Shown: in pieces, positions 1 to 28,614 of the stretch | How the letters are laid out: each line of letters opens with the position of its first letter | Numbering within the stretch: position 1 is the first letter of the stretch | Assembly (NCBI GenBank): GCA_002690325.1 | Contig: NZED01000011.1 | Span: forward strand, 35,765-69,114 | DNA: 33,350 nucleotides | Origin: Synechococcus sp. ARS1019 | GTDB lineage: Bacteria; Cyanobacteriota; Cyanobacteriia; PCC-6307; Cyanobiaceae | Reading direction: 5' to 3' | The notes under the pieces: model-generated | Database searches by the model: none | The model's input: the letters and a program-made list of their open reading frames with translations, nothing else | What the model was told of the DNA's origin: nothing | Program-made: the position numbers and the translations under genes

Positions 1-1762
1 GTCAAGTGATCAGTGTCCTGCACTCTCCTTGATTGAGCTGGCTGAGCTGATGACGCATCCCCTGGACCTCACCGGTCTAGCGGCTGTTTGGAGTTGGCTG
101 CATACCGATCAACCGTGGTTTCGGCTCAAGCGCGATCGCTCGATTCAACCCAAATCCAGTGATGAAATCCGCCGCCAGCGGTTGCAAACGCGGCAGCTTG
201 TTCTTGCTGATCGTTTGGCCGAGCAGCAGCTGTCGTTGTTGCGTGAATCACTGCCACTCACAGGGGAGCGCTACGCGGCATTAACAGCACATTGGCAACA
301 GGTCCTCGATCGGTTGATCGATCTGTCCAGTGAATCCAGCACCACACTGGAACTTCACCCCGAGGAGACGGACTGGTTGCGTCAGCTTCAGATCTCGGCT
401 GACCCTCAAAGCCTCCGTCAATGGTTGATTCGTCGTGAGCTGATCGATGCCCATGAACCACGGGCTTTGCGCGGCAGTGTTTGGTCGAAATATTTCAGTG
501 ATGAACTCACTGCAGAAGCTCAGCGCTTGGTCGACGCAGCGACTGAGTTTCATCCCGGCGACGACACCCGACAAGACCTGACAGGTCTGACCAGTTACAC
601 CCTCGACGATGCAGGTACGCGTGAAATTGATGATGCGCTCTCCTTAGAGCGCCGTGGGCCGCACTGTTGGATTTGGATCCACATCGCTGATCCCGCCAGG
701 CTGATTGAGGCGGAGAGTCCTTTGGATTGTGAAGCCAGACGACGGGCGACCACGCTGTACCTGGGCGATGGTGTCTTGCCAATGCTGCCGCTTGATCTTG
801 CGGCAGGTCCGCTCAGTCTGAAAGCCGGTCAACGATCGGCAGCATTGAGTGTTGGTGTGTTGCTCTCAGACGATGGAGAGATCGTTGACCATCACATCGG
901 CCGGAGTTGGATTCAACCCAAGTACGCACTCACCTATGAGGACGGCGATGAGCTAATTGAGCTCGCGCCACCAGGCGACGAAGATCTCTCGGATCTTGCA
1001 AGATTGCTGCTACGACGTGCCGAATGGAGACGCCGTCAAGGCGCCGTTCAACTGGATCGTCTGGAAGGGAGGTTCCGTCGTCATCACGATGCAGTTGAGC
1101 TTCAGGTGATTGAACCCAGTGCTGCCCGTTTGATGGTGAGTGAAGCGATGCTGCTGATGGGAGCAGTGGTGGCTGAATTCGGGCGTGCGAACGATTTGGC
1201 ATTGCCTTATCGCAGTCAACCTCCAGCTGATCTGCCCTCTGATGCGGAGCTTGAGGCTCTGCCTGAGGGACCGGTGCGTGACGCTGCGATCAAGCGTTGT
1301 TTGAGCCGGGGGATCCAAGGCACACAGCCCATGGCTCATTTCAGCCTTGGTCTACCGGCCTATGTGCAGGCCACATCACCGATTCGTCGTTATGCCGACT
1401 TATTGACCCATCGGCAGCTGATTGCCAGCCTCACCGATCAGCTCCCACTGGAAGAAAGCCGCATTGGTGAACTGATCGACGATCTTGATGACCCACTGCG
1501 GCAGTCGATTCAAATCAGTCGGGAAGATCAACGCCACTGGCAGCAGGTCTGGTTTGCGGAACGCCAAGAGCAAACCTGGTCAGCACAGTTCCTGCGCTGG
1601 TTGCGTCCTCAAGACCGGTTGGCCCTCGTCCACGTGGATGACCTTGCAATGGATCTTGTCGGACAGGTGCAAGGCGCCGAACCACAGCCGGGGGATCGAC
1701 TCAACGTGCGGGTGAGTGTCGCGGATCCTGAACGCGGAGAACTCCAGCTTCAGCTCAGCTGA
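1..1762 (+). CDS. RNB-domain exoribonuclease (RNase II/VacB family), 5' partial
   Basis: Frame is open to the left edge (SSDQCPALSLIELAELMT...), so the listed TTG start at 29 is probably not real. Intact RNB motifs: TLDDAGTREIDDALSLE and QATSPIRRYADLLTHRQL. Confidence 0.9.
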   Translation, partial: SSDQCPALSLIELAELMTHPLDLTGLAAVWSWLHTDQPWFRLKRDRSIQPKSSDEIRRQRLQTRQLVLADRLAEQQLSLLRESLPLTGERYAALTAHWQQVLDRLIDLSSESSTTLELHPEETDWLRQLQISADPQSLRQWLIRRELIDAHEPRALRGSVWSKYFSDELTAEAQRLVDAATEFHPGDDTRQDLTGLTSYTLDDAGTREIDDALSLERRGPHCWIWIHIADPARLIEAESPLDCEARRRATTLYLGDGVLPMLPLDLAAGPLSLKAGQRSAALSVGVLLSDDGEIVDHHIGRSWIQPKYALTYEDGDELIELAPPGDEDLSDLARLLLRRAEWRRRQGAVQLDRLEGRFRRHHDAVELQVIEPSAARLMVSEAMLLMGAVVAEFGRANDLALPYRSQPPADLPSDAELEALPEGPVRDAAIKRCLSRGIQGTQPMAHFSLGLPAYVQATSPIRRYADLLTHRQLIASLTDQLPLEESRIGELIDDLDDPLRQSIQISREDQRHWQQVWFAERQEQTWSAQFLRWLRPQDRLALVHVDDLAMDLVGQVQGAEPQPGDRLNVRVSVADPERGELQLQLS

Positions 1763-22322: not shown

Positions 22323-22691
22323 ATGACAACCGACCATCAGACGTGGCATTGCATCCAGCACTGCGGTGCGTGCTGCAGGCTTTGTCCTGATGAACGCCAG
22401 GAGGCCCTTGAGGCCTTAACGCCTGAGCAACAACAGCAGTACCTCTCCATGGTCGGAGACGACGGCTGGTGCATTCATTACGACAGTGGCGGCCGTCGCT
22501 GTCGAATTTATGACCAGCGGCCTGAGTTCTGTCATGTGAGCGCTCTCGGCGCCCTGTTTGATGTGCCAGACAGCAATTTTGACCCCTTCGCCATTGCCTG
22601 TTGCCGTCAGCAGATCAGATCCATCTACGGCGGTCGTAGTGATGTCATGCGTAAGTTCAACCGTTCCATTCGAAATGGAGGGTCTCCCTGA
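22323..22691 (+). CDS. YkgJ-family cysteine cluster (zinc/iron-chelating) protein
   Basis: CIQHCGACCRLCPDER, GDDGWCIHYDSGGRRCRIYDQRPEFCHV, FAIACCRQQI. Confidence 0.88.
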   Translation: MTTDHQTWHCIQHCGACCRLCPDERQEALEALTPEQQQQYLSMVGDDGWCIHYDSGGRRCRIYDQRPEFCHVSALGALFDVPDSNFDPFAIACCRQQIRSIYGGRSDVMRKFNRSIRNGGSP

Positions 22692-23023
22692 TGACCGAAA
22701 CAGGCGCTGACCAGCGTCCTCCGTTCACCACTGTTCTCTTCAGCACGTTCACAACGGTTTTCGTGGCTGAGCTTGGCGATAAGACTCAGCTCGCCACTTT
22801 GTTGTTGTCTGCCCAGTCGGGGGCTCCGTGGCTTGTGTTTGTTGGCGCAGCTACAGCCTTAATTGCCTCGAGCCTTGTTGGTGTTTTGGTGGGTCGTTGG
22901 TTGTCTCAGGTTTTGGCACCAGAGCGTTTGGAACTGATGGCCGGTGTCTTGATGGTTGGCCTCGGATTGTGGCTCGGTTTCCAGGCATGCCAGTCATTAC
23001 TGCAAACCCCGTTGGGAGCTTGA
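22691..23023 (+). CDS. TMEM165/GDT1 (UPF0016) family, half-size transporter subunit 1
   Basis: FVAELGDKTQLATLLLSAQSG signature, three TM segments, 110 aa. Confidence 0.9.
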   Translation: MTETGADQRPPFTTVLFSTFTTVFVAELGDKTQLATLLLSAQSGAPWLVFVGAATALIASSLVGVLVGRWLSQVLAPERLELMAGVLMVGLGLWLGFQACQSLLQTPLGA

Positions 23024-23026
23024 GCC

Positions 23027-23344
23027 ATGGATATCCCTCTACTGCTATCGACCTTCTTCACCGTGTTCTTGGCTGAGCTCGGCGACAAAACTCAACTCGC
23101 AACCGTTGCGCTGAGCGGAACGTCCAATCGGCCACTCGCAGTCTTTATTGGCTCGTCCTCTGCCTTGGTTCTTGCCAGCTTGATCGGTGCATTGGCTGGC
23201 GGATCCGTCTCTGGATTTATTCGCACTGATCTGCTTCAGCTGATCGCATCTGCAGGGTTTTTATTGATCGGTGGACGTTTGCTTTGGCCTCTTGTCACAG
23301 CCGAGCCCACACCACAAAACAACGAGGAACCGTCGTCTGACTAA
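23027..23344 (+). CDS. TMEM165/GDT1 (UPF0016) family, half-size transporter subunit 2
   Basis: FLAELGDKTQLATVALSGTSN signature, three TM segments, 105 aa; 3 nt downstream of subunit 1. Confidence 0.9.
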   Translation: MDIPLLLSTFFTVFLAELGDKTQLATVALSGTSNRPLAVFIGSSSALVLASLIGALAGGSVSGFIRTDLLQLIASAGFLLIGGRLLWPLVTAEPTPQNNEEPSSD

Positions 23345-23471
23345 ATCCCATCGCTTGGACTTCTAAAGTCTTGGAGGTATCGATCGTTTTGCACGACTCC
23401 CGCTGCGTCGGTCGTCACGCGTCGACACCCTCTTCCCCCGACCTTGAAGGTCGGTTTCACCGACTGTCCCG

Positions 23472-25808
23472 ATGAAATTCAACGTTGCCGATCTGATTGA
23501 TCAGCTCAACACCGACACTCCGGTTGAGCCGGCAACCCTGGCGAAGACTCTCAAGCTGACGAATAAGGCCGACAAACAAAGCCTCGAACTGGCACTGGAT
23601 GCACTGGTGCGGCTTCAAATCATCGAACGCAACGCTGACAGTGGCTTATTGCGTGTTGATCAGGAGGACCTGATCGAAGCCAGGTTGCGTTGCAGCAGCA
23701 AGGGCTTCTGTTTTGCCATCCGAGATGACGGCGGCGATGACATCTATATCCGCGATCATCAGCTCAATCATGCTTGGAACGGAGACCGTGTCTTGGTGCG
23801 CGTCACCCGTGATGGAGGTCGACGACGATCTCCCGAAGGTGGCGTGCAATGCATTCTCGAACGGGCCACCACCTCCTTACTCGGCCAAGTTGAACGTCAA
23901 GACGATCAGTTGGTTGCGGTTCCTCTCGATGATCGTGTTCTTGCGACCATCCAATTACCGACCGGTGACGAGCAGTACGTGCAGTCGGATCCTGTGGCCT
24001 CAGTGGTCGAAGTTGAGCTGGACCGGTACCCCGTTGCGCAATGCCCTGCAGAAGGACATGTTGCGCGTCAACTGCCGTTAAACGGTGGTCAGGCCGCCGA
24101 TCGTGACCTCCTCCTAACCAAAGCAGGACTCCACAATCCAGCACCTCAACCACGGGCGTCAGCCAAGGTGCCACCTGCCAAAGGACGAACTGATCTCACC
24201 GATCAACCCTGTTTGTTACTTCGCAGTTGGAGTGGATCAGATGCACCGTCGTTGCCTGCTGTGCATGTGCTCCCCCATGCCGGGGGTGCCAGAGTTTGGA
24301 TTCATGCTCCAGCAGTGGCTGAGCGGCTTGGTGCAGGAAGCGCGGTTGACCAGTGGTTGAAGGATCGTGGAGAAGCGTTGTGCCTCGGGCAGAGCTGGCA
24401 ACCTTTGCTCTCGAATGCGCTGGTCAAAGCCTGTGCGCTGAAACCAGGGGTGACCAGCGATGCCGTCTCAGTGCGACTGGATATTGATGCCGATGGCGAG
24501 ATCACTGAGTGGGAATTCATGCTTAGCAGCATCCGCCCTGCCGCTGAAATCAATGCCAATCAGCTCGAAGCACTAGCGAATCGCAAGCCGAAATCCCGCA
24601 CAGTCCCTGCTGCGTTGAAGGGGATTAAAGATCAACTCCCACAACTGGAAACGCTCCAGTTCTGTGCTCGTTCTCTTCAGGAACGAGACCATCGGCACGG
24701 AATGATCCAGTTGGATCTTGGTTTGCCGCAACTCGAAGAACTCGGTGATCTGATTTGGACCGATCCCACCGGACGGCGTCAACGCTGGTGTGATGCGATC
24801 AATCCAGTCGATCCACAGTCATGGCTGCAGCCGTTACTGAGAGCCGCCAACCGTGCCTGGACCCATCACGCCACGGCCTTCAAGTTGCCTGGGCTCACGA
24901 TCACAACAGCCGAGCCTGATCCCTCCACTCTCAATGACGTCGCCAAGACGGCCATCGCTTTGGAGCTGCCCCTAGAACTTGATGATGAGGGCAGCCCAAC
25001 CGCTCTGGAGCTCGTCACCGCGTTCCAAGAAGCTCCACAGCGCCGTGTGTTGGAACAACAGCTCAGTCAGGCTCTTCTTGAGCCAACCATTGAAGCGATC
25101 AATGCATCCCTCGCTGATGCAACCAGCGACGACGAACCGTCCGATGAAATCGGAACTGCTGATGTGGTTCAGGGTCTCGCCCCATGGTGCTGCGCCACTC
25201 TGCACGCCACGGATCTGGTTAATCAACAAGTTCTCGTTGCTCTGCTCCAGGACGGCAAAGATCGGCCCAGTGTTCGACAAAAAGAGCGCGTCAATCTCGG
25301 TCAGAAAGGTGCGGAAGAGCAATTGAGTTGGGGTTTGTTTAGTGCGTCGGTGTCGGAAAAGCTCCAAACATTGACGAGTGAACGCCTCTGCCAGCGACTC
25401 AATACACGACATCGCCAGGCACAAGACCTCCATCGTGATCTGATTGCAATGGTTCAAGCGCGATTCGCAGAACCTCTCCTCAATACCGAGATTGAAGGGT
25501 GCATCAGCGGTGTGCAGAGCTATGGATTTTTTGTTGAAATTCCCCCGTCCCAAGTTGAAGGCCTTGTCCATGTCAGTTCTCTGAACGACGACTGGTACGA
25601 ATACAGATCGCGGCAAAATCGTTTGGTCGGCAGAAAAAGCCGTCGGGTTTATCAACTGGGAGATCTCGTTACCGTGCGGGTGACCAAGGTTGATGCGCTC
25701 CGGAATCAGATCGATCTCGATGTCATCCATCAGCCGCAGCACGATGTCGAGCAAGCGTCAGACGGGGAAGAGTCCTCACCTCTGCCTGTCACGGTGAGTG
25801 TGCACTGA
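23472..25808 (+). CDS. RNase R/Zam-like RNB-family protein, probably catalytically degenerate
   Basis: Full RNase R architecture: N-terminal HTH (MKFNVADLIDQL..LDALVRLQIIER), OB/CSD (GFCFAIRDDGGDDIYIRDHQLNHAWNGDRVLVRV), RNB-like core, C-terminal S1 (GCISGVQSYGFFVEIPPSQVEGLVHVSSL). RNB catalytic motifs not recognisable. Confidence 0.88.
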   Translation: MKFNVADLIDQLNTDTPVEPATLAKTLKLTNKADKQSLELALDALVRLQIIERNADSGLLRVDQEDLIEARLRCSSKGFCFAIRDDGGDDIYIRDHQLNHAWNGDRVLVRVTRDGGRRRSPEGGVQCILERATTSLLGQVERQDDQLVAVPLDDRVLATIQLPTGDEQYVQSDPVASVVEVELDRYPVAQCPAEGHVARQLPLNGGQAADRDLLLTKAGLHNPAPQPRASAKVPPAKGRTDLTDQPCLLLRSWSGSDAPSLPAVHVLPHAGGARVWIHAPAVAERLGAGSAVDQWLKDRGEALCLGQSWQPLLSNALVKACALKPGVTSDAVSVRLDIDADGEITEWEFMLSSIRPAAEINANQLEALANRKPKSRTVPAALKGIKDQLPQLETLQFCARSLQERDHRHGMIQLDLGLPQLEELGDLIWTDPTGRRQRWCDAINPVDPQSWLQPLLRAANRAWTHHATAFKLPGLTITTAEPDPSTLNDVAKTAIALELPLELDDEGSPTALELVTAFQEAPQRRVLEQQLSQALLEPTIEAINASLADATSDDEPSDEIGTADVVQGLAPWCCATLHATDLVNQQVLVALLQDGKDRPSVRQKERVNLGQKGAEEQLSWGLFSASVSEKLQTLTSERLCQRLNTRHRQAQDLHRDLIAMVQARFAEPLLNTEIEGCISGVQSYGFFVEIPPSQVEGLVHVSSLNDDWYEYRSRQNRLVGRKSRRVYQLGDLVTVRVTKVDALRNQIDLDVIHQPQHDVEQASDGEESSPLPVTVSVH

Positions 25809-25809
25809 G

Positions 25810-26418
25810 ATGCTTCCGTACGTTCTGGCCGTGACAGGAGCTTCAGCGCAGCCGCTTGCAGAGCGGGCGTTGTTGCGGCTGCTGCAGCAAGAACGCGCTG
25901 TCCATTTGGTGCTGAGCCGAGGTGCCCACGAGGTGTTTCGTGCAGAACAAGGGCTTTCCATTCCTGTTGAACCTGAACAGCAGGAGCGCTTTTGGCGTGA
26001 ACGACTGCAAGTCAACAGTGGCTCGTTGCAATGTCATCGCTGGAACGATCAAGCGGCGTCCATTGCCAGTGGGAGTTATCGCACCAAAGCGATGGTGATC
26101 GTTCCCTGCAGCATGGGAACAGTGGGGCGAATCAATGCCGGTGTTGCGATGGATCTGATCGAACGTTGCGCTGATGTGCACCTCAAGGAACGCCGACCGC
26201 TTGTGATCGCTCCGCGTGAAATGCCGTTCAACCTCATTCACCTTCGCAACCTCACCGCACTTGCTGAAGCCGGCGCCACGATTGCGGCCCCCATTCCGGC
26301 TTGGTATACACAACCAACATCCCTCGACGAGATGGTTGATTTCCTCGTCGTGCGTTTGTTTGACGGACTTGAAGAGAATCTCGCTCCTTTGCGTCGGTGG
26401 ACAGGGCCAATCGCATGA
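25810..26418 (+). CDS. ubiX: UbiX family flavin prenyltransferase
   Basis: YVLAVTGASAQPLAERALLRLL, ASGSYRTKAMVIVPCSMGTVGRINAGVAMDLIERCADVHLKERRPLVIAPREMPFNLIHLRNLTALAEAGATIAAPIPAWY. Confidence 0.95.
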   Translation: MLPYVLAVTGASAQPLAERALLRLLQQERAVHLVLSRGAHEVFRAEQGLSIPVEPEQQERFWRERLQVNSGSLQCHRWNDQAASIASGSYRTKAMVIVPCSMGTVGRINAGVAMDLIERCADVHLKERRPLVIAPREMPFNLIHLRNLTALAEAGATIAAPIPAWYTQPTSLDEMVDFLVVRLFDGLEENLAPLRRWTGPIA

Positions 26419-26915
26419 CACGGATTCAACGGCTGCTGTTGGTTCCTTGTCTGGCTCCGCTGCTCGCTGTCCTGTTGATTTCCGCGGTTCAAGAACGACG
26501 CCCTCAGAAACTCAATCTGCTTCTGTGGACGAGTCCAAGCTTGCCAATTGGTGGTTGGACAGCAATCTCAGTTCTGGTCGGAGGCGGAATCAGCGGCGCA
26601 ACCGCTCTGCTTCTACGCCCAACAGGCGCACGTTTACGTCGAACGGAACGCCGATCGCTGGCCGACGGCCCTTACGACGATCGTGATTCAGCATTCAGCA
26701 TCGATCCCAGAGGGACGGGATGGACTTCTGAACCCCGTCAACCGATGCCGGAGCGGGACATTCGCGACCCAGCGCCAACTGTCGCGGTGGCTTACCGCGT
26801 TGTTCAGCGACCTCAATCCAAAGGGGAGTCTCCTCCTGCAGCGGCTGCAGCATCACCGACGCCTGATCGAGAGGTCATTGATCAATGGGGAGATGATCCA
26901 GATCGGAATTGGTGA
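26415..26915 (+). CDS. conserved hypothetical two-TM membrane protein
   Basis: MTRIQRLLLVPCLAPLLAVLLISAVQERRPQKLNLLLWTSPSLPIGGWTAISVLVGGGISGATALLL; ATGA overlap with ubiX indicates coupling. Confidence 0.7.
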   Translation: MTRIQRLLLVPCLAPLLAVLLISAVQERRPQKLNLLLWTSPSLPIGGWTAISVLVGGGISGATALLLRPTGARLRRTERRSLADGPYDDRDSAFSIDPRGTGWTSEPRQPMPERDIRDPAPTVAVAYRVVQRPQSKGESPPAAAAASPTPDREVIDQWGDDPDRNW

Positions 26916-26960
26916 TCACACCCTTGGTCTGCTTACAGTTCCCGAAGTCATCTCAGTCCG

Positions 26961-27461
26961 GTGAGCGAGACACCTGCTTCCAAGCCTTCCGCAGCCAAAC
27001 CAGAGGCGGCTGAGACACCTGCTGCAAAACCAGCGGCGTCTGGAAAACCACCGGCAAAACCAGAGTCGGCTGCGAAACCTGCAGCCAAACCAAAGCCACC
27101 CAAACCAGAGGACAAACCTTTTCCGGAATTTGTTGACTCCCTGCTGATCCCAGCAATTGAAAAACAGCTCGCCGATCATTCCATTCAGGCCGATCGTCTC
27201 GAGCGAGTCGAAGGGGAACGCCCTGTGGTTGGTGGCACATGCCCAATGCTGATCGGGGAGTTACCTGGTGGACGTCGTTTTTGGGTGTGTTTCGCCTCCG
27301 AGAACATCAACAGCAGCAAGTTGATTGCACTAGCTGATCCAGGAAGCGACCCCACGCTGCTCGAATCTTTTTTGATTGATGAGAAGCGGATGTCCCTGCC
27401 GTTGCTGGTTTCCAGGCTCCTTCAGCGTCTCAATGGTCAGAAATGGCTTGGTGGGAACTAA
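26961..27461 (+). CDS. DUF2996 protein with Ala/Pro/Lys-rich N-terminal extension
   Basis: GTG start; low-complexity [47 protein letters not shown] followed by the conserved domain [48 protein letters not shown]. Confidence 0.8.
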
Positions 27462-27534
27462 TCCCAACAGCAACAAAGACGTCGGGACCAGGCTGACGCC
27501 GCCTACATTGGCTGCACCGCGAGACTCGGAACTG

Positions 27535-28614
27535 ATGGTCCCCCCTACAGCCGTGGCCGACCAAACTGCTAATGGCGCAGTTGCAACCAAGGAGCCCGTT
27601 AAGGACACAATCCTGACGCCCCGCTTCTACACAACTGATTTCGACGCCATGGCTGCCATGGACCTCCAGCCCAATGAGGCTGAACTGGAGGCCATCTGTG
27701 AGGAGTTCCGTAAGGACTACAACCGTCATCATTTTGTTCGCAATGATGAGTTCGACGGTGCTGCTGACAAGCTCGATCCTGAAACTCGCAAGGTCTTTGT
27801 TGAATTCCTTGAACAGAGCTGCACCTCCGAGTTCTCTGGTTTTCTGCTTTACAAGGAGCTGAGCCGCCGGATTAAACAAAAAAATCCGCTTCTGGCTGAG
27901 TGTTTCGCACATATGGCTCGGGACGAGGCTCGGCACGCTGGATTCCTCAACAAGTCGATGAGCGACTTTGGAATGCAGCTCGACCTTGGCTTCCTGACTG
28001 CAAACAAGGACTACACATTCTTTAAGCCTAAGTTTATTTTTTACGCCACTTATCTCTCAGAAAAGATTGGCTATTGGCGTTACATCGCTATTTTCCGTCA
28101 TCTCGAGAAAAATCCTGATAGCAAGATTTTCCCAATCTTCAATTTCTTCGAAAATTGGTGCCAAGACGAGAATCGCCATGGCGATTTCTTTGATGCGTTG
28201 ATGAAGGCCCAGCCAGATACGGTTCGTGGCCCTATTGCAAAGCTTTGGTGCCGGTTCTTCTTGCTGGCAGTGTTCGCGACCATGTATGTGCGCGACGTTG
28301 CTCGCAAAGAGTTCTACGAGGCCTTGGGGCTTGATGCCCGCACCTACGACCGGATGGTGATTGAAAAAACAAACGAAACCTCAGCACGCGTTTTCCCTGT
28401 CGTTCTCGATGTCAAAAATGAGAAATTCTGGACGCGTCTCGAACGCCTGGTGAACAACAACGCTGCGCTGGAAGCTGCCGATTCCAGTGATTCCATCGCC
28501 CCGGTCAAATTGATCCGCAAGTTGCCCTTCTGGGTTGCAAATGGTGCCGAAATGGCCAAGTTGTTCCTGATGTCCCCTGTTGACAGCAGCAAATATCAGC
28601 CAGCTGTTCGCTGA
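27535..28614 (+). CDS. acsF: Mg-protoporphyrin IX monomethyl ester oxidative cyclase
   Basis: [55 protein letters not shown] di-iron motifs. Start at 27535 chosen; ORF is open to 27376 and would overlap the DUF2996 gene. Confidence 0.95.

Follow-up and report, generated by a model that had tools for sequence, protein, structure and literature searches.

We analysed a stretch of 33,350 nucleotides from the genome of Synechococcus sp. ARS1019 (contig NZED01000011.1, positions 35,765 to 69,114; hereafter, the window). It contains an open reading frame (ORF) for a protein that has the domain architecture of RNase R but not the catalytic residues of its RNB domain, and we identify this ORF as the orthologue of the cyanobacterial gene zam. 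A 2022 paper already described the catalytic loss in Zam, its redox-active cysteines, and its photosynthesis phenotype (PMC9145284), so the phenomenon is known; here, we report it from a marine picocyanobacterium-like genome. The coordinates of the features are given in Table 1.

The ORF begins with ATG and its frame is open across all 778 codons, so it is intact and free of frameshifts, as a first-pass annotation of this DNA had stated. That annotation also listed helix-turn-helix, OB/cold shock (CSD), and S1 domains. Pfam finds the OB_RNB and S1 domains, but the helix-turn-helix has no Pfam match, and in an AlphaFold model (from an alignment of 61 sequences; mean pLDDT, the predicted local distance difference test, of 77.6 and predicted template modelling score of 0.77), this region consists of three helices and two short strands. 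When we used the model in a fold search, RNase R structures were the top matches (8cdu at 3e-44 and 5xgu at 7e-43), and yeast Ssd1 (7am1) was matched as well. RNase R is the best match among solved structures by sequence as well as by fold (B. subtilis RNase R, 8cdu). The protein shares the CSD/OB–RNB–S1 architecture and the fold with active RNase R (E. coli Rnr and B. subtilis RNase R), but it has neither the four metal-binding acidic residues nor the catalytic arginine. Also, it scores just 222.5 bits against the NCBIfam equivalog model for RNase R (TIGR02063), which is far under the cut-off of 597.85.

A MAFFT alignment with E. coli RNase II and RNase R shows Arg, Pro, Leu, and Pro in place of Asp201, Asp207, Asp209, and Asp210, and Leu in place of Arg500. 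The SPIRRY/HR block is replaced by CCATLHA...QQ. With phmmer, alignment to 8cdu (B. subtilis RNase R) displaces the first motif by one residue, and every ligand is still missing. In other words, alignment to these three enzymes did not find four acidic residues in the RNB metal site. We considered whether a misalignment was masking an intact site and rejected this, because both methods put no Asp at the ligand positions. The first-pass annotation had reported that both RNB signatures were lost, and it had placed the two motifs correctly to within a few tens of bases. Its description of the alignment as gapless holds for the second motif but not for the first, which has an insertion or deletion of one or two residues beside it. 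Similarly, the second signature is mostly lost, but D581 (D504 in RNase II) is retained, and this residue is invariant across the 61-sequence alignment of Zam proteins. In RNase II, changing Asp209 alone to Asn is enough to abolish activity (PMC3293843). Judging from these alignments, the protein very probably lacks RNB nuclease activity.

Table 1. Features of the zam locus and of the second RNB gene in the window.
Feature	Position	Strand	Basis and remarks
zam orthologue, pseudo-RNase R, 778 residues	23472..25808	+	ORF listing, Pfam, tree, reciprocal best hit
N-terminal helical (winged-helix-like) region, residues 1-62	23472..23657	+	AlphaFold secondary structure; no Pfam match
CSD1 / OB_RNB domain, residues 71-126	23682..23849	+	Pfam; conservation highest here, 91% within the genus
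CSD1 cysteine pair C74/C80 in RLRCSSKGFCF	23691..23711	+	Counterpart of redox-active C73/C79 of PCC 7002 Zam (PMC9145284)
Degenerate RNB domain, residues 239-593	24186..25250	+	Pfam, 140.8 bits (cut-off 29.3); four Asp and Arg500 gone
LLRSWSGSDAPSLPAV in place of the metal-binding motif TIDxxxARDFDDA, residues 249-264	24216..24263	+	Alignment
CCATLHATDLVNQQVL in place of TSPIRRYPDLVVHRLL, residues 573-588	25188..25235	+	Alignment
S1 domain, residues 671-750	25482..25721	+	Pfam; conservation second to CSD1, 85% within the genus
Rnb, paralogue with intact active site	2..1762	+	5' end lies beyond the window; YTLDDAGTREIDDALSLE (596-649), ATSPIRRYADLLTHRQ (1370-1417)
UbiX-like flavin prenyltransferase gene (presumed)	25810..26418	+	One base past the zam stop

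To identify the ORF, we used the Zam protein of Picosynechococcus PCC 7117 as the reference, as this is the nearest relative of PCC 7002 among the genomes that we compared. Its best hit was the ORF (59236-61521 of contig C31; 7e-105), and Rnb came second (6e-12). In the reverse search from the ORF protein, PCC 7117 Zam was the sole match. In a quick tree, the ORF lies in a single clade that holds the Zam proteins (71 Zam rows; SH-aLRT 99) and neither Rnb nor the E. coli enzymes. The cysteines of PCC 7117 Zam are at positions 73 and 79, which agrees with the published positions in PCC 7002, and those of the ORF protein are at 74 and 80. Overall, the reciprocal best hits, the tree, the cysteine pair, and the zam-ubiX synteny bear out the first-pass guess that this is Zam, and we consider the orthology to be nearly certain.

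The characterized Zams (sll1910 in Synechocystis PCC 6803 and A1543 in Synechococcus PCC 7002; PMC9145284) resemble the ORF protein in domain order, in size, in the loss of the RNB metal site, and in the CSD1 cysteine pair. They also share the presence of one active Rnb in the same genome and, in many lineages, of ubiX downstream. In contrast, PCC 7117 Zam is just 34–36% identical to the ORF protein, and it keeps E..EN and APGQRY, whereas the picocyanobacterial copies have fully lost the site (RPLP instead of DDDD, and no SPxRRY). Zam proteins were previously reported to form their own clade of RNB proteins in all of the cyanobacteria searched, with degenerate active sites, and to be likely not nucleases; the authors extended this proposed loss of function to the entire family on the basis of sequence data, genetics, and a negative in vitro test that was read with caution (PMC9145284). 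In the same study, conservation was concentrated in CSD1 and S1, and C73 and C79 of PCC 7002 Zam were redox active and required for function, with cysteine mutants equal to the deletion. Deletion of zam lowers phycocyanin synthesis and alters the ratio of photosystem I to photosystem II; these pigment and photosystem phenotypes, and the acetazolamide phenotype, are known only for PCC 6803 and PCC 7002 (PMC9145284).

The gene is present in 33 of 34 genomes of the same genus, and nearly all cyanobacteria carry it: in the class, 384 of 390 genomes gave a match (in a few of these, the match is the paralogue). In most of the 33 genomes, many of which are single contigs, the orthologue is open and full length. 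The ratio of nonsynonymous to synonymous substitution rates (dN/dS), which the first-pass annotation had proposed to check, is about 0.10 for the whole gene (NG86, pairs with dS under 2), although this figure is rough because many pairs are near saturation. Given a draft genome of 63 contigs that is 89% complete, one might suspect that the ORF is a pseudogene in decay or arose from an assembly error, but open orthologues under purifying selection in relatives lead us to reject this explanation, which has a negligible chance of being correct.

The domains are not equally conserved. Among 20 orthologues, mean identity is 91% for CSD1, 85% for S1, and 68.5% for RNB. The paralogue Rnb shows the reverse order, as RNB is its best-conserved part (78%). 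Therefore, conservation has moved from the catalytic RNB domain to the RNA-binding domains, CSD1 and S1.

Across the cyanobacteria, the decay of the site is graded. Not one of the 223 distinct Zam sequences that we aligned keeps all four Asp. About 25 Zams, every one of them from outside the picocyanobacteria, keep Asp201, Asp209, and Asp210 as well as Arg500, with SPxRRYPDL. At the other end, none of the 56 picocyanobacterial Zams has Arg500, and they have acidic residues at no more than two of the four positions; by this alignment, the picocyanobacteria are the extreme case in which nearly everything is lost. Of the 48 Zams that retain the DDA motif, 47 have Ser, Val, Ala, Gly, or Thr instead of Asp at position 207. 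(The column for Asp207 drifted in the 223-sequence alignment because of a loop indel, so we re-read this position by motif.) In the one exception, position 207 is unchanged and Asp201 is lost. This pattern suggests that Asp207 was lost first and that the other residues were lost later, probably repeatedly. The quick tree groups Gloeobacter- and Thermostichus-like Zams with the picocyanobacteria, possibly through long-branch attraction, so several counts of independent loss are compatible with it. We do not favour horizontal replacement as the origin of the three-Asp Zams: they have full CSD1 and S1 signatures of Zam, the tree nests them among the other Zams, and ubiX lies downstream of several of them. 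Zams with three Asp and Arg500, with partial sites, and with none form a natural series for timing the loss of nuclease activity and for asking whether the RNA-binding role came first.

Both the reported presence of Zam in every cyanobacterial genome searched (PMC9145284) and the published invariance of the cysteine pair have exceptions. Zam was undetectable in three genomes in which Rnb alone is present (G121, G131, and G091, loci L101-L103), and G121 is a single-contig genome of 4.19 Mb. The cysteine pair is kept in 215 of the 223 aligned Zams. It is absent from Thermostichus-like Zams (L073, L077, L078, and L083), and one of the two cysteines is changed in two further Zams (C80G and C74S, in L068 and L092).

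The first-pass annotation read the protein as a non-catalytic, RNA-binding or regulatory relative of RNase R; the loss of the site in the alignment and the orthology to Zam support this, and RNA binding is the part that we infer. More specifically, we think it probable, though far from assured, that Zam is a redox-gated, non-catalytic adaptor. The RNB domain would have turned into a scaffold, and CSD1 and S1 would hold RNA, RNase E, or both. A C74-C80 disulfide in the RNA-contacting loop of CSD1 would switch binding with the redox state of the cell, RNA turnover would thereby track photosynthesis, and exonucleolysis would be left to Rnb, whose site is intact. RNase E enters this proposal because Alr1240 from Anabaena binds and stimulates it (PMC10989914), and Thomas et al. 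identified Alr1240 as Zam (PMC9145284).

Several observations weigh against this mechanism. Purified Zam from PCC 7002 did not bind RNA in the published test, in which the protein aggregated (PMC9145284). The Thermostichus-like Zams without the cysteine pair indicate that redox switching is not universal. A review describes Alr1240 as an active RNase II that degrades unstructured RNA (PMC10989914), which conflicts with either its identity as Zam or the inactivity of Zam. Finally, purifying selection persists on the degenerate RNB domain (dN/dS of about 0.14), so this domain either has a role beyond that of a spacer or retains some activity.

The negative binding result would fit an alternative in which Zam serves as a protein adaptor under redox control, with CSD and S1 domains that contact RNase E (or the ribosome) itself and not RNA; its regulation of RNA would then be indirect. 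However, loop 1-2 of CSD1 and other positions that contact RNA in RNase II-type CSDs are extremely conserved, and this suits RNA contact equally (PMC9145284); we view the direct-protein adaptor as possible but rather unlikely. Selection on the RNB domain and the report of RNA degradation by Alr1240 would instead fit weak or altered nuclease activity that uses a different metal site, as would the related Zams that retain three of the four Asp along with Arg500 and SPxRRY. But the ORF protein keeps 0 of 4 ligand positions and no Arg500, the single substitution of Asp209 is enough to inactivate RNase II (PMC3293843), and in PCC 7002, genetics gives no sign that Zam is redundant with other exonucleases (PMC9145284). 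Residual nuclease activity is thus highly improbable.

For the redox-gated adaptor, the closest mechanistic analogue is yeast Ssd1 (7am1; PMC8934651), a catalytically dead protein of the RNase II family whose function lies in its cold shock domains. It has an alternative RNA-binding surface, and the surface of its cold shock domains is highly conserved. Unlike Zam, Ssd1 belongs to the Dis3L2 branch and so probably had an independent origin, and it has channel-blocking insertions that bacterial RNase II does not have (PMC8934651). As the active site was lost repeatedly in fungi (PMC8097288), Zam would be a bacterial parallel to the repeated rise of Ssd1-type pseudonucleases there.

The genome encodes two RNB proteins, Zam and Rnb. 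Cyanobacterial Rnb (the sll1290-type RNase II; PMC3293843) is of the same family, but it falls in a separate clade and has intact DxxxxxEIDD and SPIRRY motifs. The catalytic motifs of the Rnb in the window are intact as well (TLDDAGTREIDDA and TSPIRRYADLLTHR), and the part of the protein that lies within the window has no Pfam CSD1. Genes like zam are often annotated as exoribonucleases, and this gives a false picture of how abundant marine cyanobacteria degrade RNA: of the two proteins here, Rnb alone has its RNB site intact.

In some genomes, Rnb is cut down to the RNB core, with frames of 398-452 amino acids that lack the N-terminal ~240-290 residues; the catalytic site is intact and Zam is full length. 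These core-only forms (L218-L222 and L227, in G034, G058, G127, G304, G279, and G029) are from Prochlorococcus-like genomes and one same-genus genome. Separately, some cyanobacteria have a third RNB-domain protein (L072, L074, and L085; ~460-740 amino acids, with SPLRR motifs) that is unlike Zam or Rnb. One could imagine a split enzyme in streamlined picocyanobacteria, in which Zam has the RNA-binding domains without the site, Prochlorococcus-like Rnb has the site without the N-terminal part, and Zam serves Rnb in trans as a subunit for RNA binding or targeting, but we consider this to be a long shot.

The gene immediately downstream of zam presumably encodes a UbiX-like flavin prenyltransferase. 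This direct adjacency is seen in picocyanobacteria and extends to many further families, with Nostoc types, Leptolyngbya types, and a genome like that of S. elongatus among them. In the window, the two genes are part of a conserved block (22323-28614) that comprises a YkgJ-like gene, two UPF0016 transporter genes, zam, ubiX, an ORF of 172 amino acids, a DUF2996-like ORF, and acsF. The YkgJ-like, UPF0016, DUF2996-like, and acsF names are putative, and we take acsF to be a gene of chlorophyll biosynthesis. The order zam, ubiX, DUF2996-like, acsF recurs in the S. elongatus-like genome (L071).
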